Shown in pieces: positions 1,747-63,935 of a DNA stretch of 64,000 bases. The notes under the pieces were generated by a model. That model saw only the letters and a program-made list of their open reading frames with translations, made no database searches and was not told where the DNA came from. The translations under genes were made by a program, and so were the position numbers. The stretch lies in NCBI GenBank assembly GCA_014904985.1, contig MU128918.1:339509-403508 (forward strand), given 5' to 3'. The number at the start of each line of letters is the position of its first letter. Within the stretch, counting starts at the first letter, position 1. The stretch comes from Hydnum rufescens UP504 (taxonomy: Eukaryota > Basidiomycota > Agaricomycetes > Cantharellales > Hydnaceae).

Positions 1747-1772
1747 CGCCCACTCAAGACTAGCGGATCCCG

Positions 1773-3620: not shown

Positions 3621-6018
3621 TCGATGATCCGACTTCGATTTCTACGTGTTCCGTTGCACCTGTCCCTTCGTCAAATATCACATCGCGGGACTCGAAAAAG
3701 CGTTTTGATTGGCGGTGATAGACTCGGTAAGCCTTCTTGGATTCCGAATACCCCAAGTAGATACACTCCATGCTCCGCGCATGTAATTTGTCATGATGTT
3801 TTGCAGGGATTTGAACGTGGGCTTTGCACCCAAATACACGAAGAAGAGATAGGTTTGGTTTCTGACCAAAATAGGCCTCGTGAGGGGTAATGCTCTCAGG
3901 CAGTGCGCGTGATGGCGTTACATTGTGAATGTGAACCGCGTGTTGGACCGCATGCCCCCAGAAAGCCTTTGGGAGTCCCGAATCCTGAAGTAAGGACCGG
4001 GCATGTCCTACGATGTAACCGTTTGCACGTTCAGCAACACCATTTTCAGGAGGGGTGTCTGGGTTCGTGAGTTCGTGCTTTTGTCCCTTTTCTTTAAGGT
4101 AAGATTTAAACTCTTTTGAACCATATTCTCCGCCACCATCTGACCGTAGGGTTAAGACTCGTTGGCCGGTTTCATTTTCAGCACGTGCGACGAACGATTT
4201 ATACTCGGCGAAAGTGTCGCTTTTGTGCTTAATGAGTGAGATGTTGATACGGCGGGATTTATCGTCAACAAACAGGGTATAATAGCGCTCATTTGAAGGT
4301 GTAGCCACAGGGGCTGGACCCCAAACATCCGAGAACACACGTCCGAGTACCACATCGGCCCGTGTTGATGTTTCTTTTGGGATAGGGGTACGAGCATGCT
4401 TTCCTTCGACACAGGGGGTGCAGACTGATGGGGGTGCCTTTGAGTCAGGTGAAATCTCCATTCCTCTGACTAAGTTCTTGTTGGCCATGTGCCGAATAGA
4501 GTCGTAGTTGATATGCCCAAGTCGACGGTGCCAAATCTCGATAGACGCCCGGGAAGAGAATGAGCCGATGGCAAGACCATGTTCCTCCGATGTATTGACG
4601 GTACTAATATATGCCTTCTCCTCAGCACAGACCGAGACTTGCAGTGTATACAGGTTTCCGTTAACCGGGGCAAGTCCGACGATCTCATTCTTGGCATTTC
4701 GGATAGTGCACTCGTTTGCTGTAAATTGTGTGGAACAGCCTGAGCGGCCAAGTTGTCGCACCGAGATCAGATTTCCATTTAGATCGGGGACATGTAGGAC
4801 GGATTGGAAAGCTCCAGGGATGGACTTTCCGCTGCCAACGGCCATTTCAACCATGATACGGCCTTCGCCCACTGCCTCTATGTACCGGTGATCACCAAGC
4901 CAGACACGACGTGGTGGATGGATCTTTTGGTATGTTGTAAACCAATTTCGGTGTGCCGACATGTGTGCTGATGCCCCAGAATCAACAATCCATCCTTCGC
5001 GGTGCTTTGGCATTACGAGTCGGTTAGCAACATGTGCTTCTACATGCTCATCGTCGCCTTCGTCGTCATCTATGCTGGCCATGAAGAGTGCGATTGGCTT
5101 TGAGTCGGTTGTATTTGATTGGGCAGAGGTTTCGGCAACTTTTCCTTTTTCGTCCCGTTTCTCATCTCGTCTTGGAGGCCCTTGTCCCTCCATTCCACCA
5201 CCCTTTGAGTAACACTTCTCCACAGTATGTCCAAGACGTTTGCAGTTTGTGCACTTCTTGTACTTTTTACCGTCCTTCGCGTCCTTTCCATTATTCGACT
5301 TAGCTGCACGAGCTCTGAATGCGGCCTCGCCGGTCTCGCGCCTCCGTTGCTGTTCTGCAAGAATCAGGGTCGTGACTTTATGCGAGTCGAGCTTTTCATC
5401 AGCGGTAACCCCAATAGAGGTCTGGAGATTGGCGTATGAGGGTGGAAGGGAAAGGAGAATAGCGATAGCGAGAATGTTGTCAGGGAGTGTGAATCCAAGG
5501 TTTTTGAGTTTAAGGGCACTTGCACGCAGTTCATTTATCTGCGTTTGCAAGTCCGAGCTATCATTAAATTGCTCGCGCCAAATTTTACTCATTAAATATG
5601 AGATGGCTTGGACACCGGTTCCTTCATAGCGTGTACAAAGGGCATCCCAGATAGCCGCAGCATTGTCTAGGTGCATAACGCCAAGGAGTGGGTCATCCTC
5701 GAGTGTAAGCGTAATCTGCTGTCGTGCTTCGCGGTTCTTGTTAATCCAGTCACCACGGTTCACATCGCCAATGCTGGGTTCAGTTTGTATATTGTCGCCA
5801 GTGACATAATCAAGTAGGCGACGCGCTTCGAGAATCTCTCTTACGCGATACTTCCACAGCATAAAATTCCCACCGTCATTAGCAAGCTTCGGAATTGATG
5901 CGAATAAGCGTCCAGTTGGATCCGCAGAAATTGCCATGGTAGTAGATGGAATAGGAAGGGCAGATGAGGGAACAGCAGTAGGCACGGCAGTACTAGAAGA
6001 TGGAGTCGATGGGCCCAT
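3424..6018 (-). CDS. copia-1 Gag-protease-integrase polyprotein
   Basis: 864 residues. Residues 30-230 match the copia Gag type; a CX2CX4HX4C zinc knuckle (C256, C259, H264, C269) binds RNA; the aspartic protease has DSG at 346-348; a GAG-pre-integrase/HHCC region has H497, H502, C533, C536; the integrase triad is D564, D627, E663 (D-35-E spacing), followed by the GVAERANG motif. The C-terminal tail is acidic, Ser/Pro-rich and ends with the LRRSGR linker that usually leads straight into RT, but here it stops at TGA 3426-3424. The ATG (6018-6016) lies inside the primer-binding site, seven bases after the LTR. No other in-frame defects. Confidence 0.92.
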   Translation of the reverse strand: MGPSTPSSSTAVPTAVPSSALPIPSTTMAISADPTGRLFASIPKLANDGGNFMLWKYRVREILEARRLLDYVTGDNIQTEPSIGDVNRGDWINKNREARQQITLTLEDDPLLGVMHLDNAAAIWDALCTRYEGTGVQAISYLMSKIWREQFNDSSDLQTQINELRASALKLKNLGFTLPDNILAIAILLSLPPSYANLQTSIGVTADEKLDSHKVTTLILAEQQRRRETGEAAFRARAAKSNNGKDAKDGKKYKKCTNCKRLGHTVEKCYSKGGGMEGQGPPRRDEKRDEKGKVAETSAQSNTTDSKPIALFMASIDDDEGDDEHVEAHVANRLVMPKHREGWIVDSGASAHMSAHRNWFTTYQKIHPPRRVWLGDHRYIEAVGEGRIMVEMAVGSGKSIPGAFQSVLHVPDLNGNLISVRQLGRSGCSTQFTANECTIRNAKNEIVGLAPVNGNLYTLQVSVCAEEKAYISTVNTSEEHGLAIGSFSSRASIEIWHRRLGHINYDSIRHMANKNLVRGMEISPDSKAPPSVCTPCVEGKHARTPIPKETSTRADVVLGRVFSDVWGPAPVATPSNERYYTLFVDDKSRRINISLIKHKSDTFAEYKSFVARAENETGQRVLTLRSDGGGEYGSKEFKSYLKEKGQKHELTNPDTPPENGVAERANGYIVGHARSLLQDSGLPKAFWGHAVQHAVHIHNVTPSRALPESITPHEAYFGQKPNLSLLRVFGCKAHVQIPAKHHDKLHARSMECIYLGYSESKKAYRVYHRQSKRFFESRDVIFDEGTGATEHVEIEVGSSIEGGENSVHAENQRGDRDEKEKVSDSPAPAVPLPATSTSQPPTQPSPSGEPTLRRSGRTIVRPLR

Positions 6019-6022
6019 AACC
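6010..6022 (-). promoter_or_regulatory. Primer-binding site of copia-1 (half initiator tRNA)
   Basis: Minus strand GGTTATGGGCCCA begins at the first base after the LTR. It is complementary to the anticodon arm of eukaryotic initiator tRNA-Met, not to a tRNA 3' end. Drosophila copia is known to use such a cleaved tRNA-Met half. The same 13 bases follow the copia-2 LTR at 18748-18760. Confidence 0.85.
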
Positions 6023-6291
6023 TATCGAGAGACTAGATAATAGACTCAGTCTTGTTATAGAGGACTGATTTATATTGGGATGAAAATACCTAGATAATAG
6101 ACTGGGAGAAAGGAATGTAATGAATGAGTGGGGAAAGGTTGTGTAGACTAAACTAGTCTCGGCTCACCTCAGTCTCGTTATAGAGGACTGAGGAGAGCCG
6201 GCTCTATCCGGAGAACTGTATAATGGGCGAGTGGGATAAAAAAGGAAATGTTTACATAATAGATATTGTCCGTATGTCTTGATTACCGACA
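6023..6291 (-). repeat. 5' LTR of copia-1
   Basis: 269 bp, the promoter-bearing LTR for the minus-strand element. It differs from the 3' LTR only at 6053 (T for C in a CpG). The right flank repeats the target sequence ACTTA at 6292-6296. Confidence 0.95.
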
Positions 6292-9229
6292 ACTTAAGCA
6301 TTTGGAGGGCTTCCATTAATTCCGGTTTCATATGATTCTGGCACTTTGTTGCAGTTTCGGAGCTAGAAGAAAATATGTGCTCACAAGGCACAGAGGATGC
6401 CTGAATTGGCAGATAATCCATAGCGAGTCGGAACCATGTGGGTAGGATATGCTCTTGCTCCTACAGGAGCAATAAGATAGAGCCACAGGTGATCCACTGC
6501 ATTACATACCTGCCAGAAACGCAGTAGTGGTTTGTTGAGAGGAGTATGCTTTGCTGTTATGTAAGCCGTAAATTCGTCATCTACACTTGTTTCCATTTCG
6601 TCTTCATCATCGTTGTTAACAAGACTGAGCTTGATGCAAGCAGTTTCGGAAAGGCTGGTTGAGGTTGCTAGACCCGACAAAGGTATAGCCATTGAGCATA
6701 GAGCTCTGTACTTTTTGAGCTAATCTGGTGTGAGGAATACCAAAAAACCACAACAGTAGTGCCACTCACCTCATCTTTCACCCACCTGACTGCAATTTCT
6801 TGCTCTATAACAGACCAGTTTTTATTGATGAAGCTAAATTTGATTGCCGGATTGAGAACTAGACAAATAGAGTGTGTCAGGCATGATTTGGGGGCTGCTA
6901 TATCTATAGGTAGTGCACCCATAGCAATTACATAGGTGGGACTCCTCCCAGCTTTCTTGTGGTATTTGTTTAACCACTCCATTCCCTCATACACATAGCA
7001 GCTAATATCACGATGCATGGCAGCATGGGATTCCCAGCAATTTTGAAGCCTCTGGAATGCAGGCAACACCCCACTGAGGACAGGGGTGGCCTCGCCTGAC
7101 ATTAACTGTTGGACAGAGTGAGGGAACTGTAAGAAAATACAAGGACTGAAATGAGAGCTTGCTTCAAGACTTCAGGTGCCACATACTGATAGTATTTCAT
7201 GGATTTTCTCCACCATGGCCCATTGGGCATCATTTAGGTCCTTATTTTGGATTTCATGAAATTTTCACTTTGCACCCATCACCTTGATTGCCTGTGAACA
7301 GCTTTAGCAAGAAATCCACAGACTGATATCTTTGGACTCACAGGCTGTGCAGGTATTGCTCTATCTAGCATCCCATATGCTGAATCCCAGCAAGTTTCGA
7401 CATCCTGTAGCAATTCTTTCTCAGGGATTCGTGGCTTGAACTCATCTGAAGTGTTCCCCTCTTGGATAATTTCCATGAATGCTATATGGTGGTCACCTGT
7501 AGATCAGACAGCATGAATGAGTCTGCGCACTTGTGCCATGATATCCCTGTCTGCTGCAGTCTTTAAAAGGGTGAGAATATGCTGAACAGATATATTTATA
7601 ACATGAGGGAAACATCTAGAGACACACAATGTTTAGTCATCATCTAGATGCAACTAATGACACAGATCATGCTTACCGGACTCTATTTCCCTCTGCTGAG
7701 AATTGAACACCTCTGGCTTTCAAGACTTGCTCCAACTCAACGATAAAGGTGGCATTGTTTGAGGCATTGTTGAGTGTCCACCAACCAACCTATTTTTGAA
7801 CTTGTTATTATCAGATTCACACAAGTGAGCCAAACATACCTTATCTACGGGGATGCTGGCACATTCAAGTAAGTGCCAAATGGCAGAGCATATAGACTTT
7901 CCATCATGAGATCCGGGGAGATAATGGAAGGTGATTAGATCAGCATGAAGGGAAAGGGTCCCATCTTGACATCACTGTATCCAATGGGTGGTAACTGCTA
8001 AGTATGGCAGCAATACTCCATCAGTCCAGATATCAGCTGTGAATGAGACCTTCCCCAGGGAAGACTAGAGATATTGTATTTTGTCACATGAGGGAATGGA
8101 ATTTGGCTATGAGATTCTTACTGCAACCTCCCACTTCAAATTTTTGAACTCCACATACCACATTTGAATAATCATTTTCTGCACCAAAGTTCAGCCAGGG
8201 AGTTCTTTGATGGTTATGGAATCACACAAATAAACTAGAAGTGCCTTGAACTCCGGACACTCAACCACATTTATGGCCCGTGAATGAGATTTCAGTGCTC
8301 ATCCTGGACCCCATGTATGCACTGTAAGACCTACCTGATCATCTGCGGCAATCCAATTCACAAGGTGTCAAAGCAGACCTTCCACTGTAACCTCCTCCCT
8401 TGCCGTCTTGCTTGCCTCAACACTACATTGCTGGATTTGATGACTCTTATGCAGGGACTCAATTGCAATTGGCCACCCATGCATAGTGCATGCTTCAAGA
8501 TACTCATCCGGGTGGTATGTTTCTAGATGCTTGTGGAGTGTAGTTGTACTCGAGTTGCCATATACCCAAGTGTGGCTATCATCCGGGAGCTTGTTCTCGT
8601 CACAGAGTGACCTAGGATTACATAGACATTTAGTCATATTATGAATGTCAGGCATGAGACTAATGCGGAAATAATAATACCTGCATCACTTACACTCAGC
8701 ATGTGGCCTATGAGATGCCTCTATATATCTTGCAAAGAAATGATCAACATCTTTTGTCTTTGAGGTACCCTTTTTTAGCATTTTCTTAGAATTACAGTGT
8801 GACAGTGATTTTCCTGGATTCGGTGAGTACATTTTGGCAGGTTGAACATGCTTATATTGTCCCAGAATAGGTGTCCTTGGTGGCATGGGTGTCCCTGGCA
8901 GTGTGGGGGCAGACTGTTTGTCAGACTCTTCTGTAGGAACTGTCATATTTGTGAGGGTGGCACTGGGTGTGAGTGAAAGTGAACTAGCTATTGATGGTGT
9001 GAGCAGCTGGGGGTCTATTGCTTCCACCTGTGGGTGCTTTTGGCCTTCAGACACAGACTCAGCTCAAGGGCGCTTCAAGTTCGGTGGCATGACAGAAGTA
9101 CAATGAGAGTGAGCCTCAGCGAGGAATCATATGGTCACATGACCTCCCAGCCATTACCCCACTTATATATTTTCTGTACACAGATGGCTACCACTTGATT
9201 TTTATTTTAGCTATCTAGTCTACTGAATT

Positions 9230-29528: not shown

Positions 29529-32500
29529 TGTAGACTTATTGCATCAGATATGGTAACTTACCACAAGTTTTTTTGCAAAAATTGCAGTAAGTTACCATTA
29601 CTGCGTTTTTGATGCATCAGGTTAGCTGTTGCATCAGCTGGGGTAACCCCTGGGCATTTTAATATCAGCCAATGGCTCAGTTGGGTTCTTAATGGATTTG
29701 CATCCAATCATTTCCTATTTAGGATAATATCCATACTGGGGTTGGGGGGGCTAAAAATATTATATAATGATTCCTAAATGGTATCCAGTTACATAATACA
29801 CTGATTCCTATTGAAAAAAAGCCTAAATGCGGAAATTAAATGAACTACATCCAAGAAAAATTTCCCCATCCAGCCCAATGGGGGCCCAGGACCAGGGGGT
29901 GGTGCCTGGGATGGATGGATGGACCCCTAGGGACCCTGATACAGTGAAAAAACCAGGCCCAGGGCCACTGGTTAGTGCCTGAAACAATGAGAACAGTAAA
30001 AACAGCACCGGAACCACCGGAAATTGCCGCAAAATAAGTGCCAGGTGGATGAGTCTGAAATTTGGCACATGATTAGAGACTGTTAGGATGCAAATCATAT
30101 CAAAATTTCAGCCCAATCCATGCATTACTTATGGAGATATGGGTTAAACAAGTTTGGACATTAGAAATTGATTTCCTCCCCCTATAAAATAGCTAGGGAC
30201 TTGAAAATTCACACAGAGCATGAGGTCATTATGAAGCAACTATGTGCCAAAAATCAGCCCAATCCATGCACTTAAAGAGGGGGAACTGGGCAGGGAGGTC
30301 CAGAACCACCAGAAGTTTCCGCAAATTAACTGCTGGGCGGACATGTCTGAAATTTGGCACCTGTTAGGGGGCCATTGGTACGCAAATCATATCAAAATTT
30401 CACCCCAATCCATGCATTACTTATGGAGATATGGACCAAACAGGTTCAGACATTAAAAATTGATTTCCTCCCCCTATAAAATAGCTAGGGACTTGACAAT
30501 TCACACAGAGTATGATGCCATTATGAAGTAACCATGTGCCAAGAATCAGCCCAATCCATGAACCTAAAGAGGGAGAACTGGGCAGGGGGAACCGGGACCA
30601 CCGGAAGTTGCCGCAAAATAACCGCTGGGCAGACGTGTCTGAAATTTGGCACATGATTAGAGACCATTAGGACGCAAATCATATCAAAATTTCAGCCCAA
30701 TCCATGCATTACTTATGGAGATATGGGCCAAACATGTTTGGACATTAAAAATTGATTTCCTCCCCCTATAAAATAGCTGGGGACTTGAAAATTTACACAG
30801 AGTATGAAGTCATTATAAAGTAATCATGTGCCAAAAATCAGCCCAATCCATGCACTTAAAGAGGAGGAACTGGGCAGGGAGGACCAGAACCACCAGAAGT
30901 TGCCGGAAAATAAGCGCTGGGCAGACATGTCTGAAATTTGGCACCTGTTAGGAGGCCATTGGTACACAAATTATATCAAAATTCCAGCCCAATCCATGCA
31001 TTACTTATGGAGATATGGGCCAAACAGGTTTGGACATTGAAAATTGATTTACTCCCCCTACAGTCAAGATATGAACTTGAAATTTTACACAGAGTATAGT
31101 CATATAATGGACTAAATGTATGCCAAAAATCAGCCAGATCAGTTGAGTTTGAGACATTCAACTCCTTTGGCAGGCAGAAAAGAGGAACAACCCCACCATA
31201 AATGTGAATCACCCCACACTGGGCCCAAAATAGGTGGAATTGACCTGTAATATTATGATACAGACTATATCCAAAAATGGAATGAATTGGATGTGTGGAA
31301 GTGGCTGAAATTGAGGGGGAGGGGAAGGATAATCAAAAGTGAATTACACAAGATGTAGAGCAGGCATGGATCTGATATCAGGCCACTAGTGTAATATGTA
31401 TATGGGGAGCTCATATACCAAATATCAGCCTAACCAGACTCCGTTTAGGCATTGCTCCACATCATCCCCCCCTAACTCACAATTTCCTCCCCAGGGCCTT
31501 CCATCCATACCATTACCCTGAAAATTCACAGTTGGCTCATCCAAACACATTCATAACATCCCTCAAAATTTCAGATTTCTTACTGCAATGTGAGACCTTG
31601 CAGAATATTTTCAAGTTTCACTGTAATACACCCTCCAGTGGGGGCACTTCCAGAGCTCCAATGACTCTGATTTTTTGTAGGCCACACCTGGTCACCATTT
31701 GAGGCTCAGGTGCAAAATTTCAGGCCATTCTAAGCACTTCTAGCATTGGTCACATGACCCAGATCTTCCCCTCCCCCTGCTTCACTCAGTGATCCAATTT
31801 GCATGGACCCCATGGCCATCTGTAGTAGTAGCAGGTGACACCCCATGATTCCAATTTGAAGACATTCCATGGAATATTCATTAAGTTATTCAAGAAACAT
31901 TCCAGATCAATTCAATTTGAGGTCAGAACCATGGTATTTCCACTAAATACCATGGTTCTGACCTCAAATTGAATTGATCTGGAATGTTTCTTGAATAACT
32001 TAATGAATATTCCATGGAATGTCTTCAAATTGGAATCATGGGGTGTCACCTGCTACTACTACAGATGGCCATGGGTCCATGCAAATTGGATCACTGAGTG
32101 AAGCAGGGGGAGGGGAAGATCTGGGTCATGTGACCAATGCCAGAAGTGCTTAGAATGGCCTGAAATTTTGCACCTGAGCCTCAAATGGTGACCAGGTGTG
32201 GCCTACAAAAAATCAGAGTCATTGGAGCTCTGGAAGTGCCCCCACTGGAGGGTGTATTACAGTGAAACTTGAAAATATTCTGCAAGGTCTCACATTGCAG
32301 TAAGAAATCTGAAACTTTGAGGGATGTTATGAATGTGTTTGGATGAGCCAACTGTGAATTTTCAGGGTAATGGTATGGATGGAAGGCCCTGGGGAGGAAA
32401 TTGTGAGTTAGGGGGGGATGATGTGGAGCAATGCCTAAACGGAGTCTGGTTAGGCTGATATTTGGTATATGAGCTCCCCATATACATATTACACTAGTGG

Positions 32501-33753
32501 CCTGATATCAGATCCATGCCTGCTCTACATCTTGTGTAATTCACTTTTGATTATCCTTCCCCTCCCCCTCAATTTCAGCCACTTCCACACATCCAATTCA
32601 TTCCATTTTTGGATATAGTCTGTATCATAATATTACAGGTCAATTCCACCTATTTTGGGCCCAGTGTGGGGTGATTCACATTTATGGTGGGGTTGTTCCT
32701 CTTTTCTGCCTGCCAAAGGAGTTGAATGTCTCAAACTCAACTGATCTGGCTGATTTTTGGCATACATTTAGTCCATTATATGACTATACTCTGTGTAAAA
32801 TTTCAAGTTCATATCTTGACTGTAGGGGGAGTAAATCAATTTTCAATGTCCAAACCTGTTTGGCCATATCTCCATAAGTAATGCATGGATTGGGCTGGAA
32901 TTTTGATATGATTTGTGTACCAATGGCCTCCTAACAGGTGCCAAATTTCAGACACGTCTGCCCAGCGCTTATTTTCCGGCAACTTCCGGTGGTTCTGGTC
33001 CTCCCTGCCCAGTTCCCCCTCTTTAAGTGCATGGATTGGGCTGATTTTTGGCACATGATTACTTTATAATGACTTCATACTCTGTGTAAATTTTCAAGTC
33101 CCCAGCTATTTTATAGGGGGAGGAAATCAATTTTTAATGTCCAAACATGTTTGGCCCATATCTCCATAAGTAATGCATGGATTGGGCTGAAATTTGATAT
33201 GATTTGCATCCTAATGGTCTCTAATCATGTGCCAAATTTCAGACATGTCTGCCCAGCGGTTATTTTCTGGCAATTTCCGGTGGTTCTGGTGCTGTTTTTA
33301 CTGTTCTCATTGTTTCAGGCACTAACCAGTGGCCCTGGGCCTGGTTTTTTCACTGTATCAGGGTCCCTAGGGGTCCATCCATCCATCCCAGGCACCACCC
33401 CCTGGTCCTGGGCCCCCATTGGGCTGGATGGGGAAATTTTTCTTGGATGTAGTTCATTTAATTTCCGCATTTAGGCTTTTTTTCAATAGGAATCAGTGTA
33501 TTATGTAACTGGATATTATCCAAGGTTATTATGGGATATTATCTAATGCACCCTTCCTTATTGGGCTATCTAATTACCACATTTAGGGATATTAATATTA
33601 TAAAATATATATTATTTAACTGGAATAATAATAATAGCCTGGATGCAGAAGGTTTAATGAAATGGGGTTACTGTAGCTTGTTGCAACAAAGTTACCGGGT
33701 ATTGATGCAACCCTTCCAAGGTAAGTTACCGTGTTTGTTGCAAAATATTTACA
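29529..33753. mobile_element. Giant palindromic foldback element FB1
   Basis: A 4.2-kb inverted repeat. The termini are related: TGTAGACTTATTGCATCA at the left and, inverted, TGTAAATATTTTGCAACA at the right, each followed by GGTAACTTACC a little further in. Near-identical arms converge on a 9-nt spacer (31938-31946). From the outer shared block (29814 and 33483) the left arm is ~2,129 bp and the right ~1,541 bp; the ~588-bp excess equals two extra copies of a ~293-bp tandem unit on the left (30183-31058). No protein-coding frame of note. FB2 (42730-46020) has the same centre. The target duplication is unclear because the two flanks come from different sequences. Confidence 0.8.
30183..31058 (+). 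repeat. Tandem ~293-bp units in the left arm of FB1
   Basis: The landmark 'CCCCCTATAAAATAGCT' recurs at about 30176, 30469 and 30765, and a diverged form (CTCCCCCTACAGTCAAG) sits at about 31052. Each unit contains CAGCCCAATCCATGCA twice. The right arm has two units fewer. Confidence 0.75.
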
Positions 33754-41861: not shown

Positions 41862-42060
41862 ATAGCAAGTGCTGGTGGGTCCATAGCATATGCTGGTGGA
41901 TCTGTAGCAGGTGCTGGGACACCTGTAGCAGGTGCTTGAACACCCATAGCAAGTGCTAGGACACTGATAGCAAGTGCTGGGAGGTCCATAGCAGGTGTTT
42001 TTTTGGGCCTAGCACATGCTACAATGTCTGCATAGTAGGTGGTAGCAGGTGCTGGCCTGC
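41862..42060 (+). repeat. Minisatellite of ~24-bp units
   Basis: About eight imperfect copies of a unit like ATAGCAGGTGCTGGGACACC. It starts at the MITE terminus. Confidence 0.7.
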
Positions 42061-42555
42061 TATCAGGAAACCCTTCAAGGGTATGTTTGAAAACCTTAAA
42101 AAAGGGCCTTCAAGGGTCAATGTAGTTTCCCTGTAGTGAAAAAGTGATCAAAAGAGTATTTGATAGCAAAAGAGTCAGGCTTTAAGCTCAAGTTGAGATC
42201 AATTTTGGAACTTGTAGAATTCTGCACTGGCCGACCTGTCAATTACCTAATATCCTAAATAGGAAATTATGTAATCCACCCAAAAAAGCAGTGACATAAT
42301 CATACATAACAATAATAGTATTATGTAATATTAAATTACATAATTAGTTGATGATATAATTAAATATATTATATAATACATATTACTTAATATACATGAT
42401 TACCTAATTAACTATTATCTAATTAATTACAGAATCCAGGTTGCATGACCACACCAGCAAGAGGGGGCACCCCTGCCCAGACCAACTAGAGGGGTGGGGG
42501 AGGGGCTAGAGGGGCCACCAGAGGGGAAGGGGGGCCCAGGGTGTGCACTTAGGGG
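42061..42555. other. AT-rich spacer, no gene
   Basis: 42290-42430 is almost pure A/T with repeated ATTACATAAT and TAATTAAT motifs. 42470-42555 is G-rich (GGGGTGGGGGAGGGGC). Both may belong to the outer part of FB2 or to the adjacent hairpin-intron relic. Confidence 0.3.
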
Positions 42556-42559
42556 GATC

Positions 42560-42670
42560 CTATAATGGGGGAACAGTGGGTTAGTTGAAAAAATCAATAG
42601 TAGTGTAAAAAGGGCAGCCAGAGGCAGCCCTTTTTGCACTAGAGTAGCTAAATTGAACCTGGGACTCAAT
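42560..42670 (-). repeat. Hairpin-intron relic
   Basis: On the minus strand a hairpin with arms AAAAAGGGCTGCC / GGCAGCCCTTTTT-type pairing (42605-42637) is followed by TTCAACTAACCC and an acceptor CATTATAG ending at 42560. This is the order seen in the 46-49 kb units. The donor side is not clear. Confidence 0.4.
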
Positions 42671-43201
42671 GCCAGCAGTTGCCCAGTTTCAAAGGCAAGC
42701 CACCTGCTGCTATGAAAAAGCCTAAATGTGGTAACTAGTAGACCAATATAAAAGGGTAGATTGGATAATACTCCATAGATCATATCCCATTACATAATAC
42801 AGTGATTCCTATTCAAAAAAGCCTAAATGTGGAAATTGGATGAGGCACATCCAACTAAATGTGGAGCAGATCATTCTGAAATTTGGTACATGATTAGATA
42901 TTACTTCTAAGCAGATCATATCAAACTTTCAGCCAAATTAGTGCAGTGGTTATGGAGATATCAGGCAAACAAGTCTGAACATTGAAAATTCATTTCCTCC
43001 CCTTGCAGAATAGTTAGAGACTTGAAATTTTGCAAAAAGCCATATGATATAATGTACAAATCATGTGCCAAAAATCAGCCCAATCCATGCCTTTAAGGGA
43101 ATGAACTGGACAATAGGTACCAGAAGCACTGGAAATTGCTGAAATGTAAGGAGTGCAAGGATCATTCTGAAATTTGGCACATGATTATATACTGTTTAGG
43201 T

Positions 43202-44217: not shown

Positions 44218-46020
44218 TTTAGGTGAAGAACATATCAAAATTTCAGCCAGATCCACACAGTAATCACAGAGATATAAGGGAAACAAGTTTAAACATTGAA
44301 AATCAATTTACTCTCCCCACAGACAACGTATGGACTTGAAATTTGACATGGAGTATAATCATATAATTAAATGAACATGTGCCAAAAATCAGCTTATTCT
44401 GTTTACTTCTAGATATTCAACTCCCTTTTCAGGTAAAAAGAGAACAAGCTACCATGAATGTTGAACACTTTAAATTACACTCAAACTAGGTGGAATGGGT
44501 CTATAATATTATAGCCCTGACTATATCCAAAAATGGAATGAATTGGATGTGTGGAAGTGGCAGAAATTGAGGGGGAGGGGGAGAAAGATCAAAAGTGCAT
44601 TACATAAGATGTAGAGCAGGGGTGGCCCTGATATTACACCACTAAGTTAGTACATATATGGGGAGTGCACATGCCAAATATCAGCCCAACTGGGCTCCAT
44701 TTAGGCAGTGCTCCACAGGCCTCCCCCCTAAACAACAATTTCCTCCCCAGAGCTTTCCATCCATGCAATTGCCTTGAAAATGCACACTTAGGTCATCCAA
44801 ATACATCTATAGCATCCCTAAAAATTTCAAATTCATGACTCCAGTGCCAGAGTCTCCATAATATTTTCAAGTTTCACTGAAATACCCCCTGCAGTTGGGA
44901 CATTTCCAGAGCCCCAATCACTCTGATTTTTTGTAGGCCACACCTTCTCACTATTTGAGGCTCAGCCCCAAAATTTCAGCCCATTCTGAGGACTTTTGAC
45001 ATCTGTCACATGACCAAGATCTTCCCCTCCCCCTGCTTCACTCAGTCCTCTAGTTCATATGGACTTTGTTGCCATCTGTGGTAGTAGTATGTGAGAGTGT
45101 ATGATTCAAATTTCAAGTTATTCCATGATATATTCATGGAGTCATTCAAGAAACATTCTAGATCAATTCAATTTGGGGGTCAGAACAGCAGTATTTAGTG
45201 GAAATACCGAGCCCCAAATTGAATGATCTAGAATGTTTCTTGAATAACTCCATGAATATTGCATGGAATATCTTGAAATTTGAATCATACACTGTCACAT
45301 ACTACTACTACAGATGGCAACAAAATCCATACAAACTAGAGGACTGAGTGAAGCAGGGGGAGGGGAAGATCTTGGTCATGTGACAGATGTCAAAAGTCCT
45401 CAGTATGGGCTGAAATTTTGGGGCTGAGCCTCAAATAGTGAGTAGGTGTAACTAACAAAAAATCAGAGTGATTGGAGCTCTGGAAATGTCCCAACTGGAG
45501 GGTGCATTTCAGTGAAACTTGAAAATATTATGGAGACTCTGACACTGGAGTCATAAATTTGAAATTTTGAGGGATGTTATAGATGTATTTGGATGATCCA
45601 AGTGTGCATTTTCAGGGAAATTACATGGATGGAAGGCTCTGGGGAGGAAATTGTTGTTTAGGGGGGAGGCCTGTGGAGCACTGCCTAAATGGAGTCCAGT
45701 TTGGCTGATATCTTGCATGTGCAATCCCCATATATGTATTAACTCAGTGGTGCAATATCAGAGCCACCTCTGGTCTACATTTTATGTAATTCACTTTTGA
45801 TCTTCCTCCCCCTCCCCCACAATTCCAGCCACTCCCACACATCCAATTCATTCCATTTTCAGATATAGTCAGGGTTATAATATTAAAAGCCTATTCCACC
45901 TATTTCAGGTCTATTTTGAACTGTTTAACATTCATGATAGCTTTTGTTCTCTTTTTACCTGAAAAGGGAGTTGAATACCTAGAAGTAAACAGAATAAGCT
46001 GATTCTTGGCACATGTTTAG

Positions 46021-46314
46021 CACCTTGGTCAGTCACCTAAGCCTACCTAATTAGGTACCATTTCCAGGCCAGATAATGGACCTAACTAGGTCCCTTCATT
46101 ATTACAGCCGAAATCAGCCTTTTTATGATTTTCACTTCAGTCAACCTGCTCGCCCAGAGTTGGCCGAAACTGGGACTTAAAAGATCTTAGACTTGCAGCA
46201 GACTATCTGGGCTTATCAGGGATGACCACAATTATTTATTATTATCATACCAGTGGTGGTTCTGTTCTTATTTACTTGTATATATATATATTTATTTAAA
46301 AATTCAATAAAAAA
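46021..46314. other. Spacer ending in an A-rich run
   Basis: No frame. 46262-46315 holds TATATATATA followed by ATTCAATAAAAAAAAAC, which looks like a polyadenylation signal and tail of a retroposed transcript on the plus strand, but the body is not recognised. Confidence 0.3.
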
Positions 46315-46421
46315 AAACACACCACACACCCACTAGGGCAGGTGTGTGGTACTGTCCAGTGTTCAGAGGTGGGTTCAGGGAGGGGGCATGGGGTGTCGGG
46401 CAGTATCTGTTGTATGAGAAT

Positions 46422-47805
46422 CTGGAATAAGTTATAATATATAAGTTAGAAATTCAAAGCAGCATGAGAAGAGCAGCTATTGCTGCTCTTTTTGCACTGC
46501 TTGCATATACAAGTCCAAAAAAAAATACTTAGTAGCACCACACACCCATCCTAATGGGTGTGTGATGCCTTGCATTGTTTCATTGGGGGTTTGGCCAGCT
46601 TGTTGATCACCACTGAGGGGGGCATGGCTTGGCAGTTCACTGTTGGATGGGTTGCAGGTTATCATTTGGGTGGGTTGTCATTTCGGTTTGGATTTAAAAA
46701 AAATTTTGAAGTGATGCAAAAGGAGCAGTGCAAGCTGCTCCTTTTGTGTTGCTGTACATATAGAAATTTTTTTTAAAAACCTTGGAGTACACCCACTTCA
46801 GTGGGTGTGTGGTACTCATTTTGTACCCTGGTCACATAGGTTGTATTCAGGTTTGTGTATGGGGCCTGGTCGTCATTTATGCATGTGGTTTGTTTGGCAT
46901 GTGGGTTGCTGGTCGCATGTGTTTGTTTGGTGGGGGCATGGGTCTTGATTGGGCATTGGTTGGGGTTCAGATGAAAATCTAGGATCATAAATAATATGTT
47001 AGTAAAAAGGGGAGGGGAAAGAAAGCCATGCAAAAGGAGCTGCATATGCTGCTCCTTTGTGCAATCATACTTAGCTTAAAATTACCACACCCGCTGAAGC
47101 AGGTGTAGTTCATCTGTCATTGTTGGTGGGTTTCATTTGGTGTTTATTGGTTTGGTGGGTTGCATTTGTGGCTTTTGTTTTGTTTGGTGGGTACATCGTT
47201 ATTTTCAGGGGGAGGGGGTGGGGCAGGGGGCTTTCTTTGGTGGGTCTTCATTTTGCTGTTAGTCAATAAGATGTGTTAGTTCAGTAAATTAAAACCAGTG
47301 CAAAAAGAGCAGCATTTGCTCTTTTTGTGCTGATGGGGGTGCACTTACCTTATATTGAACCACACACCCACTGCAGCAGGTGTGTGGTTCATGTGGCCAC
47401 TCGGGTGGCACATGGCCACCTCTCATGCTTTCTGTTGGCATTGTTTCATTGGGCATTGTCTCATTGGGGATGGTGTCACTGGGTGTGTGCTGTCGTTGGG
47501 TTTGGCATGGTGGGGTTTGGCTGGGTGTCGTTTGGCTGGGTTTTGTTAGTTGGGTTTCATTTGGCATGGTTCCATTTGGTGTGGTTTCATTGGGTGTGCC
47601 TTTGTTTGGTGTGTTCGGGGTTCGCATGTTGTCACTGGGGTCCTGACTGATTGGGCCTCATCATCAGTGGGTTCTCATTTGATGCCATACTATGACCTAG
47701 AATAAAAGTTAGTCAGTAAAGAATTCAAAGTAGTGCAAAAAGAGCAGCTTTCACTGCTCTTTTTGCACCATTGTATCTACTAGCATAAAAATAAATAACA
47801 CTCAC
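46422..47805 (-). other. Left-arm intron-like intervals (minus strand)
   Basis: Intervals that look like introns on the minus strand: 47697-47805 (GTGAGT ... ATTCTAG), 47256-47348 (GTAAGT ... AACTAACA ... AACAG), 46979-47074 (donor changed to CTAAGT; ACTAACA; CCTAG) and 46422-46528 (GTATTT; TCTAACTT; TTCCAG). A fifth hairpin at 46715-46752 has a donor-like GTTTTT at 46780 but no clear acceptor. Each holds one long hairpin; spacers between hairpins vary in length. Confidence 0.55.
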
Positions 47806-47887
47806 CTTTTGACCACACAACCCACAGCAGTGGGTGTGTGGTTGTTGGTGTCTGCCTTTCTAGGTGGCTGCCTCTTCAGTTCGGTGG

Positions 47888-48356
47888 GTGTATGCAGTCA
47901 AGGGAGAGTGCAACTCAACACCAGCAATTACTGGAATTCAAAAGGCACCCAAGTGCTGGCATGGCAAGCAGGATATGGATGAATAATAAGGAGACAAATG
48001 AGTGATAGATGTTAGATAATAAATATTTTGTGCCAAAAATGATAGAGAACAACAATAATAAGGCAGACTTCCATGAGGCACTATATGCCAACATCGCAAA
48101 GTGGGTTGGATCAATTCTGGCCCACAGAAATGATCCAACCCACTTTGCAATGTTGGCATATAGTGCCTCATGGAAGTCTGCCTTATTATTATTGTTCTCT
48201 ATCATTTTTGGCACAAAATACTCATTATCTAACATCTATCACTCATTTTTCTCCTTATTATTCATCCATATCCTGCTTGCTGTGCCAGCACTTGGGCACC
48301 TTTTGAATTCTGGCAATTGCCAGTGTTGAGTTGTGCTCTCCCTTGACTGCATACAC
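47888..48356. repeat. Central palindrome of the array
   Basis: Arms of about 226 bp (47888-48113 and 48131-48356) flank a 17-nt spacer and are nearly identical; open frames on the two strands therefore give almost the same peptide and are not separate genes. The first intron-like interval on each side starts about 315 bp from the centre, so symmetry continues beyond the arms. Confidence 0.8.
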
Positions 48357-48437
48357 CCACCAAACCGAAGAGACAACTGCCTAGAAAGGCAGACACTAAT
48401 GACACACACCCACCACTGCAGGTTGTGTAGTCAAAAG

Positions 48438-49398
48438 GTGAGTTTTCTTTTTATTTTTATGCTAGTAGATACAACAGTGCAAAAAGAGCAGCAAAAGCTG
48501 CTCTTTTTGCACAGGTTTTAAATTTTTTATTAATACTTTTATTTACTATTCTAGGTCAAGCTGTCCCACCCACGAATGATGACCACATGAATGGAAACAT
48601 GTGAACAAATGAACAAATGAGTGAGCAAATGAATGAACAATGACAACACCCACAGGAAGCCATGATGAAGAGCAGGAAAACAGAGAGCCACACACCCACT
48701 GAGGCAGGTGTGTGGCCATATAAGGTATGTATTATGTTTTACTGGTTTCAGATGTGCAAAAAGAGCAGCAGCTGCTGCTCTTTTTGCATGACCTTTGATT
48801 TCAACTAACATATACTATTCTAGGTCAACATATCCCACCCCAACATGCGAAATCATGCAGCCACAAACCTAAACCCATGGGCCTGCCAAGACCCCATGAA
48901 ACCCTGCACCCCATTATGCATGAATGCACCAACAAATGAAGGACAATGCACACCCGAAGCCACAGGGGAAATGAGGGAGCCACACACCTGCTGTGGTGGG
49001 TGTGTGGCCACATAAAGTATGTATTTTTTCAGTAGCTACAAATGTGCAAAAAGAGCAGCAGTTGCTGCTCTTTTTGTGCGAGTTTTTTAAACTAACTTAT
49101 CTTTTATTTTAGGCCAAGACGCCCCACCCCAATGCACAAACCACACAACCACAAGCCCAAACCCTGTGTATGAACACATACTGCCATGAGAATGAAAATG
49201 GGTGAAGGACTGAGGACACACACATGAAGCTGCAGAGGAAATAAAGAGCCACACACCCACTACTGTGGGTGTGGTAATCTTTAAAGTAAGTATATATTTA
49301 CATGTCCAACCATGCAAAAGGAGCAGCATAGGCTGCTCCTTTTGCATTGGTTTTCTTTTATTTTTATTTTTACTAAGGTAGTACTTTATTTAATGTAG
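48438..49398 (+). other. Right-arm intron-like intervals (plus strand)
   Basis: 48438-48554 (GTGAGT ... CTATTCTAG), 48725-48823 (GTATGT; CAACTAAC; CTATTCTAG), 49017-49112 (GTATGT; AAACTAAC; ATTTTAG) and 49286-49398 (GTAAGT; TACTAAGG; AATGTAG). Hairpins inside: 48477-48512 (16-bp arms, 4-nt loop), 48755-48788 (perfect 34-bp palindrome), ~49043-49078 and ~49313-49346. Upstream exonic hairpins include 48687-48716 and 48979-49008 (10-bp arms GCCACACACC / GGTGTGTGGC). Confidence 0.6.
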
Positions 49399-49535
49399 GT
49401 GCCCACTACCTGTGCCATCCCCAAAACATGTGACCCCAAACAAAGCAACCCATGACCCCAAATGAAGCAACCTGCAGCCCCAAACGAAGCAACCTATGAC
49501 CCCGCCAACTGAACACCTGCAAGAACAGGGTGTGT

Positions 49536-49900
49536 GGCCCCCAGATGAAATGTGTGGGTAAAACAAAGTGTGGCCACCAGGTGGGGTGTGGCCCTGCTGG
49601 GTGCAACCCCCCCCCTTGTGGGCAGGGGGATAATATGTATATAATACTAATAATTAGTGATGAGAATAAACAATACAGTAATAAGTAAATAATTGTACCT
49701 GCCAATAAGCCCATATGGCCCATTGACCCACTTGGGGGCATTCCCAGGCTTACTGGGACCTATCCTGATACCCCCAGCCAAATATGAGTTTGATATCAAA
49801 ATGCCTATGGGTAGACTTACGGATTGACCTAAGGTCACCCTCTTGAAATTATTTGATATCAAAGGATTTTGATGCCTCTTAGGCTTTTGATTTGATGCAG
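49536..49900. other. Spacer, nothing recognised
   Basis: G/C-homopolymer-rich to 49625 (run of nine C at 49607-49615), then A/T-rich to 49700. No gene, repeat partner or RNA motif seen. Confidence 0.3.
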
Positions 49901-52525
49901 TTTGACATACCTATTACAGCCCCTCTAAGTGGCTGACCAAGGTGGAATTGAGACTCGAGAAGCTACAATACAGTAGCATTGAGACCACAAGATTACCAGC
50001 CGCAGACTGGGGCTTCTGATGATCAAGCCATTGAACTCAAGTCACCTGTAAATCCCACCCAAGTTGAGTGTTCCATCAAAGCCAAATGGAAGTACAATAC
50101 ACACAGCATAGAGTCTGTGGACCAAGACCCTGAGACTGTGAATACCCCAGCCTTGAAACTGGGATTCTATATAAGGATAAGGCCCTACATAACCCTTGTC
50201 AAGAATGGCCAAGACTCCTTGTGGCTTGAGTATCCTGTTACAATTGATGACACAGCACTGTCACCTCCACAAATGGACCTGCCCCAAGGGAGCATGTTTT
50301 GAATGTCCAATCATGCAAGTACTCAGTATACAATTGTGCAAGGTAACTCCAATGCTGGTGGAGTTGAACCTAAACAAAGGACCAATCTCAAGTCCAGCAC
50401 AAAGCCCACCACTTGATATTCCATATCAATGGTGTCATGAAAAACTAGGGCCCCCCATGTTCAAATTGGTTCAAGGCTTGGGACTGGGGCTTGCTGTGGA
50501 GGGAATGATGTCTGCAGGACAAACTACATCTAAAGGAATAAGCCACATACCTGCTCTTGGTGGAAATGCAAGTTGGGAAGAACATGGGATATGAGCCTTA
50601 TGGGACACTGTACTTTTCGTCATCAATCTATCACCTGACCCATACAGTGGCACAACAAAATGTCCTTATTGGAACAGATACACTCTCATGTACTGTGTTT
50701 CTGACCCTGAACTCATTGGTACAGGCCACAGGAGTTTGTAGGACCCATTCCAAGTCCACTCAAAGAGTCCCAAACACCTGAGTACAGGAACATGTGTAAC
50801 AATGGCCCTTATAGGAGCAAATATGTTCCCAGGGCAGGGGACAGACAAAAGAATCTCACTGTTATCCAGTCAGGTGTTCCAGTTGAAATGGGGGGACATC
50901 ACCATAGCACAATACAGGACACACTGTGGAAATTTCTGTTCAACTCCAAGCTCAGAATTGTAGCTGCCAGGTACAACAACTGCTTACTGTGTAGCAACTG
51001 CCAACAAGTGGAATGGAGTAATAATATGGCAGAGCCACCTCCACAAGGAGATTTGATCCAATGAATCAGATGTCTTGGGTTGGTTACCTTCCCTTGATGA
51101 TTCAAGGATGCCTGCCTTGTGGTCAGTTTCTACAAGAGGATCCTGTTGAGAATGATTATACTTGCCAACCCTGAGAGTATCAATACAAACCTCTTTCATG
51201 ACAGGACCAGGATTTTGGGGGATGTCACTGCAAATCTCATCTTTGAAACATCCACCAGCACTAATGACTGTTTGGGTAGAAGAGTTACTGCCAATACCTG
51301 CCATGGGGGTGTCACAAATGTTCACCATCAGAAATCTTGATAAATCTTCCAGAAATATGCCAGAACTGATGCTTGATAGCCTCCGGCTGTTGGTACTCAA
51401 TTGGATCCATCACAGTCAGGGAGGGCAAGTACACATTATGACTAAATAAGTGGCCTGGTCAGTTGGCTACAAAGGAACTTGACCCAATGGGGGACTCCAC
51501 ACAAGTCTACAAGCCTACCATGACCATTGGCACCACCGGGAAAGGAAACTTCCTTTATGAGGCCTCTAGTCAATGAGCATTACATCCTATCATAAATTCA
51601 TCCACAAGTTATCAACTAATGTGGAGTGACATCATGCAGTTGCATCCACAAATGGGCCTGTCTCCATGGCATGGACTCCCACATCTGAAGCCTTGGGGTA
51701 GTCAAGACACATCAAATAGAGCTCCAAGGGACACTGTCCTGAGCCACTGGGACCACACGACTGCCAATAGTGGACACGAAGCCTTGCCAATTGAAGCAAG
51801 ACATTCCTACGACAACAATCCAAGACTCATATGGGTTAACCACCAAATTGGGATTGGAATCAAAGATGACATTGGGGAGAAGGCTTCTGTGTACATCAAC
51901 CCATTGGAGGGGCTAACTTCTGAGACCATTTCTGGAGACACCATAATCTCTAACTACAAGTATCTTCACAAGTCCCAGCCTTCCAGGGTTGCTGGAAACC
52001 TTCTGGAAGGATCTGACAGGACTGTGATCCTCAGCTCATCAGACTACAAGATGAGACTGTTAAGCAGCCTAAGACCTGATACCAGTGACATTAGGCTCCC
52101 ACAGTACTGCAGGTCAAGTATCATTACAATGGAAGAGAACAAAACTTGAAGGGCCTTACTACTGGACCCTCTAAATGATGGAACAAGGCACAATGTATGC
52201 CCAAGAATGGAGTCCCTGCCTATTGCCATAAAATCCCATGTCAGATGAAAGAATCAGACCCTCACTAGGGACCTTGATAACTCTCCTATGAAATTACAAG
52301 GATGGATCCTGTGCCAAGGTGACCCCATTGTGATCAAGCAATCATCACAGGGCCATCTCTTGGGAGTTTCAGGATGTATTATGCACTCACATCTACAAGG
52401 GGTTGAGGGGTCTGATAATGACATGGGTCACACCTTCTGTGCATCTGACTGGCCCTCCTATTCCCTCTATGAAGGTCCATAACAGAAGATATAACCCCTT
52501 CATGACCAAAGGGACTGGGGGGCTG
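49901..52525 (+). pseudogene. Unidentified internal region of an LTR element
   Basis: Followed directly by a polypurine tract (AAAGGGACTGGGGGGCTG, 52508-52525) and a family 2 LTR, so it is the 3' internal part of a plus-strand element. Plus-strand frames lie in different phases: 49979-50302 (YIRIRPYITLVKNGQDSLW), 50792-51064 (NNCLLCSNCQQVEW, a possible zinc site), 51619-52149 (LIWVNHQIGIGIKDDIGEK) and 52288-52482. No protease, RT, integrase or chromodomain motif is visible. By position it may hold the same kind of post-Pol ORF as G1 39291-40567, but I see no convincing sequence match. Confidence 0.35.
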
Positions 52526-61997: not shown

Positions 61998-63204
61998 CTT
62001 CATCTCACAAATCCACTCAGCCACACTATCACCAAAATATTCCCATTCATCTAATCAGGTTGCTGCCTCCACCTCAATATAAAGTAAGCTGCCAACATTT
62101 AAACCAAGTGGGTGGGTAAATTTCACTGTTGCTTGGACCCCACAGATTTGTCATAGCACCCAGTATGGCTTCATGGCTATCTCCAATATTTCAACTTTGA
62201 CATATTACATGCAATGTTGTTACAGCCCATCACCTATGCCTCCAGCTTCTGGTCTCCACTTAAGGGGAAAATCCTGGCAGAGATAAGGATTGATCCCAAT
62301 GTCATGGGAGGACATCACTTTGATACATGTATGTACATGATGGCTATAATGGTGTATATTCATCAATGATCCCTGCAAGTCTGCTTGCAATATTGGATAC
62401 ACCATGTCCTTGCAAATCACCATCATCCCTGATTTGAGCCTGGATAGAGCTAGCAGTATACTCTGTGTCATGTGCATTAGGTGGATCTGCACTCCTCCCA
62501 CCTCAAATCCAAATGATGACCACTAGTTTAACAAGCCAAGATAAGCAATCTCCTGTGCACTTAGAATCAATCTCAACACTGACAACAAAGAAACACCAGA
62601 TATTGAATGTTGGGCTTGGGGATAGACAGGTTATGCTGGAATGAATGCTTAGATTTCATGAAGCCAGGAAATTAAGGAAAACATAAACTGACCAACACTT
62701 TGAGGAGGGGCACACTGGCCTTGATCCCCTGCAGGTTTGAGCACCTAATGAAACCTAGGTGAGATAGGGGTAAGGTTTGAAGTGTACAAGGACAATATTT
62801 ACCAGACAGAATTAAGGCAAGCAATGAATGAGATTGCAATTGTACAGAATCATGTGGCTTTGGCACATTAGATGTACTTACATCATCCTGTGGAAAATAC
62901 AATTGTCATGAGGGCAGTTGGGAAATAGAATATGATTCCATTGTGTAGATCTAGGAACTCACAAGCTACATTCCAAATGGCAGCAAAATGTTTATGAGCC
63001 AGGGACCATAAAATGAGGAGTAAGAGGTGTGGACTCACATCCTATGGGGTAGTACATACCACCAAGGAAGAGATCAGGGAGAGAGAAATAATAAAAGGGT
63101 GGGAGGTGTGCACTAACCATCTATGGGGACAAAACCCCCAAGAGGGACATCAGCAAACAATTATGTATTGAAGTCTAAGACATCTGGACTCACAGACTGG
63201 ATTG
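61998..63204. other. Unassigned flank of G2
   Basis: No coding frame with known motifs. Minus-strand frames at 62220-62501 and 62672-62902 lack recognisable domains. From about 62996 degenerate relatives of the 76-bp satellite unit appear (GACTCACATCCTATGGGG, CCACCAAG). Otherwise featureless. Confidence 0.3.
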
Positions 63205-63935
63205 TCAATGCCACCACAAGAGGAATGAGCAAGGCATGATGCATTAAATTTCAAGACATCTGGACCTACTTCCTACATTGTCAATGCCATCAAAAGATGG
63301 ATCAGTGAGGATGGCAGATCAAAACTCTATGAGATTTCAACTTACAACCTATAGTGTGAATGCCACCAAAAGATGAATCAGCAAGGCACAATGCATTGAA
63401 TTCTAAAACATCCAGACTTACACCCTATGTTGTCAATGCCACCAAAAGATGAATCAGCAAGGGGCAATGCATTGAATTCTAAGACATCCAGACTTACAGC
63501 CTATGTTGTGAATGCCACCAAAAGATGACTCAGCAAGGCACAATCCATTGAATTGTGAGACATGCAGACTGACAGCCTATGTTGTGAATGCCACCAAAAG
63601 ATGCATCAGCAAGGCACAATACATTGAATTCTAAGATATCCAGACTTACAAACTATGTTGTGAATGCCACCAAAAGATGAATCAGCAAGGCACAATGTAT
63701 TGAATTCTAAGATATCCAGACTTACAGGCTATGTTGTGAATGCCACCAAAAGATGAATCAGCAAGGCACAATCCATTGAATTCAAAGACATCCAGATGTA
63801 CAAACTATGTTGTGAATGCCACCAAAAGATGAATCAGCAAGGCACAATGCATTGAGTTCAAAGACATCCAGACTTACAAGCTAGTTGAATGCACCAAAAA
63901 TGAATCAGCAAGGCACAATGCATTGGAATGCAGGC
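63205..63935 (+). repeat. Satellite with 76-bp period
   Basis: The landmark T(C/G)AATGCCACC starts at 63205, 63281, 63357, 63433, 63509, 63585, 63661, 63737 and 63813, an exact 76-bp step each time, then at 63886 (73). Units read ATGCCACCAAAAGATGAATC, AGCAAGGCACAATGCATTGA and CATCCAGACTTACA in turn. Divergence is higher at the left end, as expected at the edge of an array. No spacers, so not CRISPR. Confidence 0.9.

Follow-up and report, generated by a model that had tools for sequence, protein, structure and literature searches.

The stretch of Hydnum rufescens UP504 DNA analysed here (64,000 nucleotides of contig MU128918.1, positions 339,509 to 403,508 of the forward strand; hereafter the window) carries a row of hairpin-bearing, intron-like units arranged in mirror image around a central palindrome, which raises the question of what such an array is and what is preserved in it. 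The region 46021-49944 is probably a decayed copy of a family of non-autonomous cut-and-paste transposons, which would give rise to two divergent non-coding transcripts selected, now or formerly, for being spliced. The features that lead to this reading can be seen in the DNA itself: defined ends, 8-bp duplications in three copies, units arranged in mirror image, splice signals that are conserved, stems that pair, and non-coding exons that change fast. An ordinary gene would show the opposite of a pattern in which splice signals are under purifying selection and exons are not.

Splice signals of the array units are conserved

A covariance model was built from 44 units at other loci, taken from 71 representatives all picked for carrying both splice signals, and was run on the window, six array loci and four viral contigs. 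In the window, nine full units scored more than 60 bits with this model. Five of them lie on the minus strand (46419-47843) and the other four on the plus strand (48400-49384); each faces away from the centre, as had been stated in a preliminary description of the locus. The same description had assigned one order of signals to eight of the nine units. The hairpin order and the acceptors were confirmed (YAG in eight of nine), the donors only in part: GTRWGT is present in six units, GTATTT in one, and two have none. The strict CTAAY branch followed by YAG was found in six of the nine. The intron-like lengths of 93-117 nt hold for the six intact units. The transposon ends at 46021 and 49944, as well as a weak outlying unit at 42557-42733, are additions to that description. 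The individual units are listed in Table 1.

The units belong to a genome-wide repeat family, as had been suspected: the genome (63.2 Mb, 539 contigs) contains 2,781 exact-class sites for hairpin B and 3,802 for hairpin A, compared with 0 for each of the reversed-pattern controls. Splice signals were evaluated in loci L009-L037, a non-random sample made up of the most window-like loci and, from the first pattern matches, five arrays and four small loci (L032 was dropped as a duplicate of L034). Hairpin A lies on one side of hairpin B at 205 of the 265 B sites in these loci; these 205 constituted the unit sample, and the 60 B sites lacking a hairpin A partner were left out of the unit counts. 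The donor, branch and acceptor played no part in finding the units. A GTRWGT donor was present between A and B in 75% of the 205 units (2.4% on the reverse strand, 4.2% in shuffled sequence), and CTAAY followed by YAG was present after B in 75% (1% and 13.6%, respectively). With a looser branch-acceptor pattern, the share was 91% (27% and 39%). The 138 units carrying both a donor and the looser pattern have predicted introns of 83-123 nt, with a median of 103 nt. Of 115 distinct units with a donor and a branch, 110 have YAG as the first AG downstream of the branch (96%, compared with 50% in shuffled sequence), at a median distance of 19 nt. Single linkage at 70% grouped the 205 units into 14 clusters, one of which holds 155 units; a majority of members have the donor in nine clusters and the acceptor in 12, the reverse strand giving 0 and 0. 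The signals recur in order and on a single strand across unit types that differ elsewhere.

The rates of change per site were determined in five families (of 67 clusters, the 60 with fewer than six members were left out, and two of the other seven were unresolved), omitting CpG-type sites except at GT and AG. The values were 6/186 (3.2%) for the donor GT, 15/315 (4.8%) for the rest of the donor, 21/430 (4.9%) for the branch and 3/184 (1.6%) for the acceptor AG, in comparison to 528/4159 (12.7%) for other intron sequence and 1003/5524 (18.2%) for the exon after the acceptor. Compared with the remaining intron sequence, change at the donor, branch and acceptor is slower by a factor of 2.6-8 (Fisher's test, p = 2e-5 for the donor GT and 1e-7 for the acceptor AG; cells and units come from related copies and are non-independent, so the p-values are overstated). 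The possibility raised in the preliminary description, that hairpins are kept while donors and acceptors vary freely, does not describe these five families. Judging by these rates, the splice signals are under constraint, and the intervals show in their sequence the properties that had been ascribed to them, those of spliceosomal introns with donor, branch and acceptor in order on one strand. Their splicing is predicted on the same grounds.

Both hairpins are maintained as paired stems

Every one of the 153 measured units has positions -20 to -26 relative to the donor within hairpin A (rounded), and the stretch that this hairpin occupies (approximately -16 to -30 nt from the donor) is presumably the usual site of exon junction complex deposition. 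It folds with z values of -3.2 to -4.3 (three units). Hairpin B consists of a stem of approximately 16 bp and a variable loop. The four plus-strand introns of the window fold with z values of -4.3 to -6.3, the donor, branch and acceptor remaining outside the B stem; this folding, together with the donor frequencies given above, upholds the earlier claim that the arrangement is not due to chance. At pair 10 of hairpin B, A-T was found in 138 and G-C in 29 of 173 cases, 97% being Watson-Crick compared with 69% expected, and two-sided changes occur in nine of the 25 pairs of the covariance model. Conservation figures for hairpins A and B are biased, as the units were located by their hairpin cores.

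Such stems might also be palindromic DNA sites bound by a transposase or in replication and amplified as a satellite, in which case the intron-like signals would be bystanders kept by descent. The near-perfect palindromes, the compensated changes and the lack of a preference for G.U mismatches are in line with this explanation, and internal repeats are common in transposons. We consider it unlikely because the donor, branch and acceptor lie outside the hairpins and yet change slowly, relative to the other intron sequence, within the five families, and because they keep their order on one strand across otherwise different unit types. Another explanation accepts the same transposon and places the gain in the released intron RNA, with hairpin-B introns acting as small structured RNAs, e.g., small-RNA precursors. 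Hairpin B and the acceptor AG show the lowest rates of change (1.6%), a ranking biased by the use of the B core to find the units, and the variable loop and the stem of about 16 bp would agree with such a role. However, Dicer substrates usually have stems longer than 16 bp, hairpin A is left unexplained, and an Rfam scan of the window at gathering scores gave no match; a gain of this kind is very unlikely. The same scan led us to reject a known RNA family. The 28-nt hairpin-B pattern also occurs once in each of the four viral contigs (L038-L041), where the model matches those 28 positions only (29 bits). Because the rest of the unit is absent there, these contigs are taken as unrelated, the matches perhaps being terminators.

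The exons show no sign of coding capacity

The exons are non-coding as far as tested. The predicted spliced plus arm of the window copy has stops in all three frames, and the sense open reading frame (ORF) is longer than the antisense one in only seven of 47 arrays. The lengths of homologous exons are not kept modulo 3 (e.g., 261, 262, 263 and 247 nt). Exons change faster than introns (p = 2e-13), and two exon bodies of the window do not fold (z = +1.5 and -0.1). The same exon-intron-like layout would be expected if a transposon carried an inverted, decayed protein-coding gene whose exons had been duplicated in tandem, and several spliced readings are rich in proline and threonine. This origin is nevertheless highly improbable in view of the stops, the ORF comparison and the fast exons. 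Moreover, homologous exons differ in their length by 1-2 nt, CpG-rich copies such as L018 included, and 47 ORFs, many of them from arrays, match only two pentapeptide-repeat models (one member each) and CesT_Tir_1 (one member, E = 3e-4). A coding array was rejected, as no open frame across the spliced exons emerged from these comparisons. The CpG observed/expected ratio of the exons ranges from 0.00 to 1.29 among arrays (window and L009-L037), L018 and L034 being among the copies with high values, and TG/CA replaces CG; this spread could reflect age- or methylation-linked decay and could be used to date copies.

Duplications flank whole elements

The element has 5'-CA..TG-3' ends and a motif common to both termini in inverted orientation. 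This terminal motif, CASSYYGGTCAGYCA, was found at 1,389 sites in the genome, compared with three for the reversed-pattern control. The right end is near-identical in nine copies (the window and eight others), and the right flanks beyond it are unrelated and different in each. Exact 8-bp target-site duplications were found for three of 46 left/right end pairs, namely L026 (AGTTTGGT), L027 (GTTATTGA) and L034 (GGTTACCA), and an exact 7-bp duplication for one (L012, GGCATGG in the array's orientation), while ten shifted controls for each of the 46 pairs gave no 8-bp match and one 7-bp match. The three copies with 8-bp duplications are 5.1-5.8 kb long and contain units in both orientations around a central palindrome. 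As the duplications flank whole elements, the whole element is taken to be the moving unit. Defined ends at different sites, a duplication (8 bp, three copies) and the lack of its own transposase assign it to the non-autonomous DNA transposons. In L012, a 2,584-bp insertion (6033-8616) has the same kind of ends and a 7-bp duplication and contains no hairpin units; its interior is mirrored (arms of approximately 950 bp, 94%), and it looks like a transposon of the same kind with a different cargo.

The term mobile intron, used in the preliminary description, was not supported by this analysis, as the duplications surround elements of 5-6 kb and the modules include an exonic hairpin. True introner-like elements, i.e., single hairpin introns that jump by themselves and have piled up inside a transposon, are accordingly quite unlikely. 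Repeated, symmetrical canonical introns are a hallmark of fungal introner-like elements in the consulted part of PMC8469720, and the conserved splice signals would be expected of them. Three of the 11 listed B groups have a single exact-class site, and the hairpin survey covered the array loci and the listed B sites, so that single copies could still reside in host genes. On the other hand, hairpin A is part of the module and modules are ordered alike in both arms, the duplications lie at the ends of the 5.1-5.8 kb elements and not at splice sites, and of the 11 groups formed by the 50 B sites listed from contigs 1-3 (2,781 in the genome), 10 contain a transposon end or have one at most 2.5 kb away. 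Hairpin A was found within approximately 1 kb in six of the seven B groups that the listed hairpin-A sites cover, the group at C2:7606 having none. For the array loci and the listed B sites, a single mobile intron was rejected as the moving unit on the element-flanking duplications and the module order.

The mirrored plan is shared by complete copies

In complete copies (e.g., L014, L018, L019 and L034), the left end is followed by minus units, the centre, plus units and the right end; L023 and L028 are single-arm fragments, and in L009 and L024 there are several arrays with interruptions. The covariance model gave approximately 9-11 modules per element in the six array loci and the window. 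Hairpin-B sites could be oriented in 245 of 254 cases in 26 sequences, GTGTGT within hairpin A contributing to the calls, and neighbouring oriented sites at most 1.8 kb apart were '--' in 81, '++' in 91, '-+' in 28 and '+-' in eight cases. Central palindromes equivalent to that of the window are present in L034, L026 and L027, with arms of 239-325 nt (93-97%). The order of unit types was examined in 33 mirrored arms, considering only units with both hairpins and reading donors after hairpin A. Of the 33 arms, 17 begin with the AAAAG|GT unit type, which does not recur among the 78 later units (19 of these lack a strict donor). The last place is taken by the AAAAGGAG-type hairpin B in 18 arms, compared with three of 78 units elsewhere (p = 3e-11 for the first type and 4e-9 for the second, both overstated because the copies are related). 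Since the order of unit types is similar in both arms, it points to an ordered string anciently duplicated in inverted orientation, rather than a random satellite. The array in L033 (C1:911675-918189) lies approximately 1-7 kb from where contig C1 ends, which might mark a subtelomere or a point at which the assembly broke within repeats.

Candidate transposases and comparison with known systems

Transposase matches were found outside the array elements: a KDZ domain at L019 9354-9824, approximately 2 kb to the right of the array element, a listed KDZ match in L021 and a weak DDE_3 match at L013 3-1100. KDZ domains are abundant in the genome, with 154 matches among 150 scored of 584 candidates, many in open frames, and two of the nine listed KDZ matches on contigs 1-9 are within 3 kb of the terminal motif. 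There are 90 genome-wide matches to the hAT dimer domain. In the consulted part of PMC12730594, Kyakuja elements have 5'-CA..TG-3' ends, 7-bp duplications and no terminal inverted repeats, Zisupton has 8-bp duplications, and the hAT duplication is usually 8 bp. The array elements resemble KDZ elements (Kyakuja/Zisupton) as portrayed there in their CA..TG ends, in the 7- or 8-bp duplications and in the abundance of KDZ domains in the genome; the 8-bp duplication size would fit hAT. Unlike Kyakuja, they have a terminal motif inverted at both ends, and no transposase was found in them. The duplication size and the ends would fit KDZ loosely.

Literature searches, with most subscription papers outside their reach, found no description of mirrored intron-module arrays. 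The element stands out among non-autonomous DNA transposons in that its interior is unmatched by anything these searches found. Foldback transposons have large inverted repeats and modular repeats inside, and share both features with the array elements; unlike in foldback transposons, the long inverted repeat is here central, the mirrored modules face outward and the termini are short. Fungal introner-like elements were reportedly treated by van der Burgt in 2012 and Collemare in 2013. According to the part of PMC8469720 available to us, fungal introner-like elements and sister stwintrons integrate at new positions in genes; they share with the array units repeated canonical introns of strong internal symmetry, many copies and one-strand signals. 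In contrast to introner-like elements as presented there, the modules described here stand in mirrored arrays within an apparently non-coding transposon, include exonic hairpins, and the duplication flanks the whole element. The introners derived from DNA transposons, as far as covered in the excerpt of PMC9860276, are likewise non-autonomous, and their transposon ends and duplications are linked with splice sites. There, one element is one intron, whereas the elements studied here carry about 9-11 intron modules each and are not introns themselves.

A model for the array and the points that oppose it

In the model that we favour, divergent transcription would start at the central palindrome, the supposed bidirectional start region with a putative promoter role, and two non-coding units would run outward from it. 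Each arm would have approximately 4-7 modules, with approximately 4-7 short introns spliced per arm. A module would comprise an exon ending in hairpin A, a donor approximately 8 nt later, and an intron of approximately 83-123 nt with a CTAAY branch, a YAG acceptor and hairpin B between the donor and the branch site; after splicing, the non-coding RNA would consist of A hairpins one after another. Movement of the element is assumed to depend on a transposase supplied in trans (KDZ-type or hAT). Splicing and the two hairpins would benefit the element, and selection would keep both hairpins along with the ability to be spliced. Hairpin B would fold away the middle of the intron, leaving the donor, branch and acceptor outside the stem, and hairpin A may block exon junction complex deposition. 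Among conceivable benefits, escape of an intron-rich structured transcript from host silencing or RNA decay seems the most likely, doubtful as it is. In Cryptococcus, silencing is reportedly set off by spliceosomes that stall. For C. elegans, PMC5554785 speaks of intronic barriers to nuclear RNAi. Tentatively, the elements might constitute a class of selfish DNA in which splicing itself is the selected product. Non-coding transposons made of tandem modules and read outward from a bidirectional core would then use thousands of hairpin introns, with exonic hairpins over the exon junction complex site, to mimic well-spliced host transcripts and so evade silencing and decay. If spliced, the arrays would be a natural experiment on a parasite's use of introns, including introns as a silencing shield, and would show intron modules multiplying without jumping into genes. 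The genome would also offer intron variants by the thousand, related and of natural origin, with which intron definition and the roles of intronic and exonic hairpins could be dissected.

Several observations count against this model. Outward transcription, splicing and promoter activity are all inferred from sequence, and the suggestion that hairpin A may affect the exon junction complex derives from its position. The strict donor is absent from one quarter of the units and the strict branch-acceptor pattern from one quarter, and only eight of the 14 unit clusters have a majority with both signals. The stem mismatches are G.U and A.C in equal measure (18 versus 18 for hairpin B, 15 versus 14 for hairpin A), without a preference for G.U; because of this equality, upkeep of the stems at the RNA level is not established, and DNA-level palindrome correction could maintain them instead. 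Among 81 ORFs of at least 150 codons from L009-L037, Pfam searches gave no transposase match inside any array element, nor any other convincing match for ORFs of the arrays. No duplication was found for 42 of the 46 end pairs, some of which pair the ends of different elements, or for the window copy, and a search up to 20 kb leftward gave no duplicate of its right flank. The left flank of the window element is a 1.8-kb palindrome (44218-46020) common to L010 and L013, which other copies share with a different junction. Because this palindrome also stands beside other copies, the window copy may belong to a composite.

Features of the window

Table 1. Units, termini and central palindrome of the array element in the window (bits, covariance-model score)
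Feature	Position	Strand	Description
Whole transposon-like element	46021-49944	.	3,924 bp, 5'-CACCTTGGTCAGTCACC ... GTGGCTGACCAAGGTG-3'; delimited by shared right end and terminal motifs
Left terminus	46021-46041	+	Identical start in L010, L013, L014, L015, L019 and L021
Right terminus	49924-49944	-	Terminal motif, inverted copy
Central palindrome	47845-48399	.	Arms 47845-48119 and 48125-48399, 275 nt, 91% complementary
Unit R1	48400-48557	+	Hairpin A, donor GTGAGT, hairpin B 48477-48512, acceptor TTCTAG; intron-like 48438-48554 (117 nt); 103.7 bits
Unit R2	48686-48826	+	Intron-like 48725-48823 (99 nt); hairpin B 48755-48788; 130.8 bits
Unit R3	48978-49115	+	Intron-like 49017-49112 (96 nt); hairpin B core 49047-49076; 139.8 bits
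Unit R4, outermost	49247-49398	+	AAAAGGAG-type hairpin B 49312-49347; intron-like 49286-49398 (113 nt); 105.3 bits (match 49247-49384)
Unit L1, mirror of R1	47694-47843	-	Intron-like 47697-47805 (109 nt); donor GTGAGT; 114.6 bits
Unit L2	47256-47389	-	Intron-like 47256-47348 (93 nt); donor GTAAGT, acceptor ACAG; 93.6 bits
Unit L3	46976-47110	-	CTAAGT in place of a donor (lost); branch CTAAC and acceptor CCTAG kept; 62.8 bits
Unit L4, decayed	46685-46814	-	Both hairpins; without donor, without acceptor; 62.6 bits
Unit L5	46419-46567	-	Donor GTATTT, branch CTAAC, acceptor CCAG; 85.9 bits
Remnant of a tenth unit	46272-46351	-	Hairpin A at 46319-46349; no match to hairpin-B core; 41.9 bits
Weak outlying unit of the same family	42557-42733	-	Beyond the neighbouring palindrome; 38.7 bits; a similar unit in L010 has donor and acceptor

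The 1.8-kb palindrome to the left of the element is nearly perfect. A second copy lies in the window at 30973-32910 (79%), and copies beside other array elements are 90-94% identical; it looks like another foldback-type repeat. A 21-bp minisatellite (GCAAGTGCTGG-like) is located beside some array elements, at 41862-42138 of the window, in L012 (reverse-complement 1-1116) and in L026. Elsewhere in the window, a Copia-type element occupies 1478-6291 on the minus strand and contains RVT_2, gag and integrase-type domains; its flanking 269-bp direct repeats are 99.6% identical, indicating a young insertion. Such Copia-type domains, the many KDZ domains of the genome and its short introns are in keeping with a basidiomycete-like fungus. 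A tandem repeat of approximately 76 bp is found at the right edge (63135-63925), with self-matches at multiples of approximately 76.

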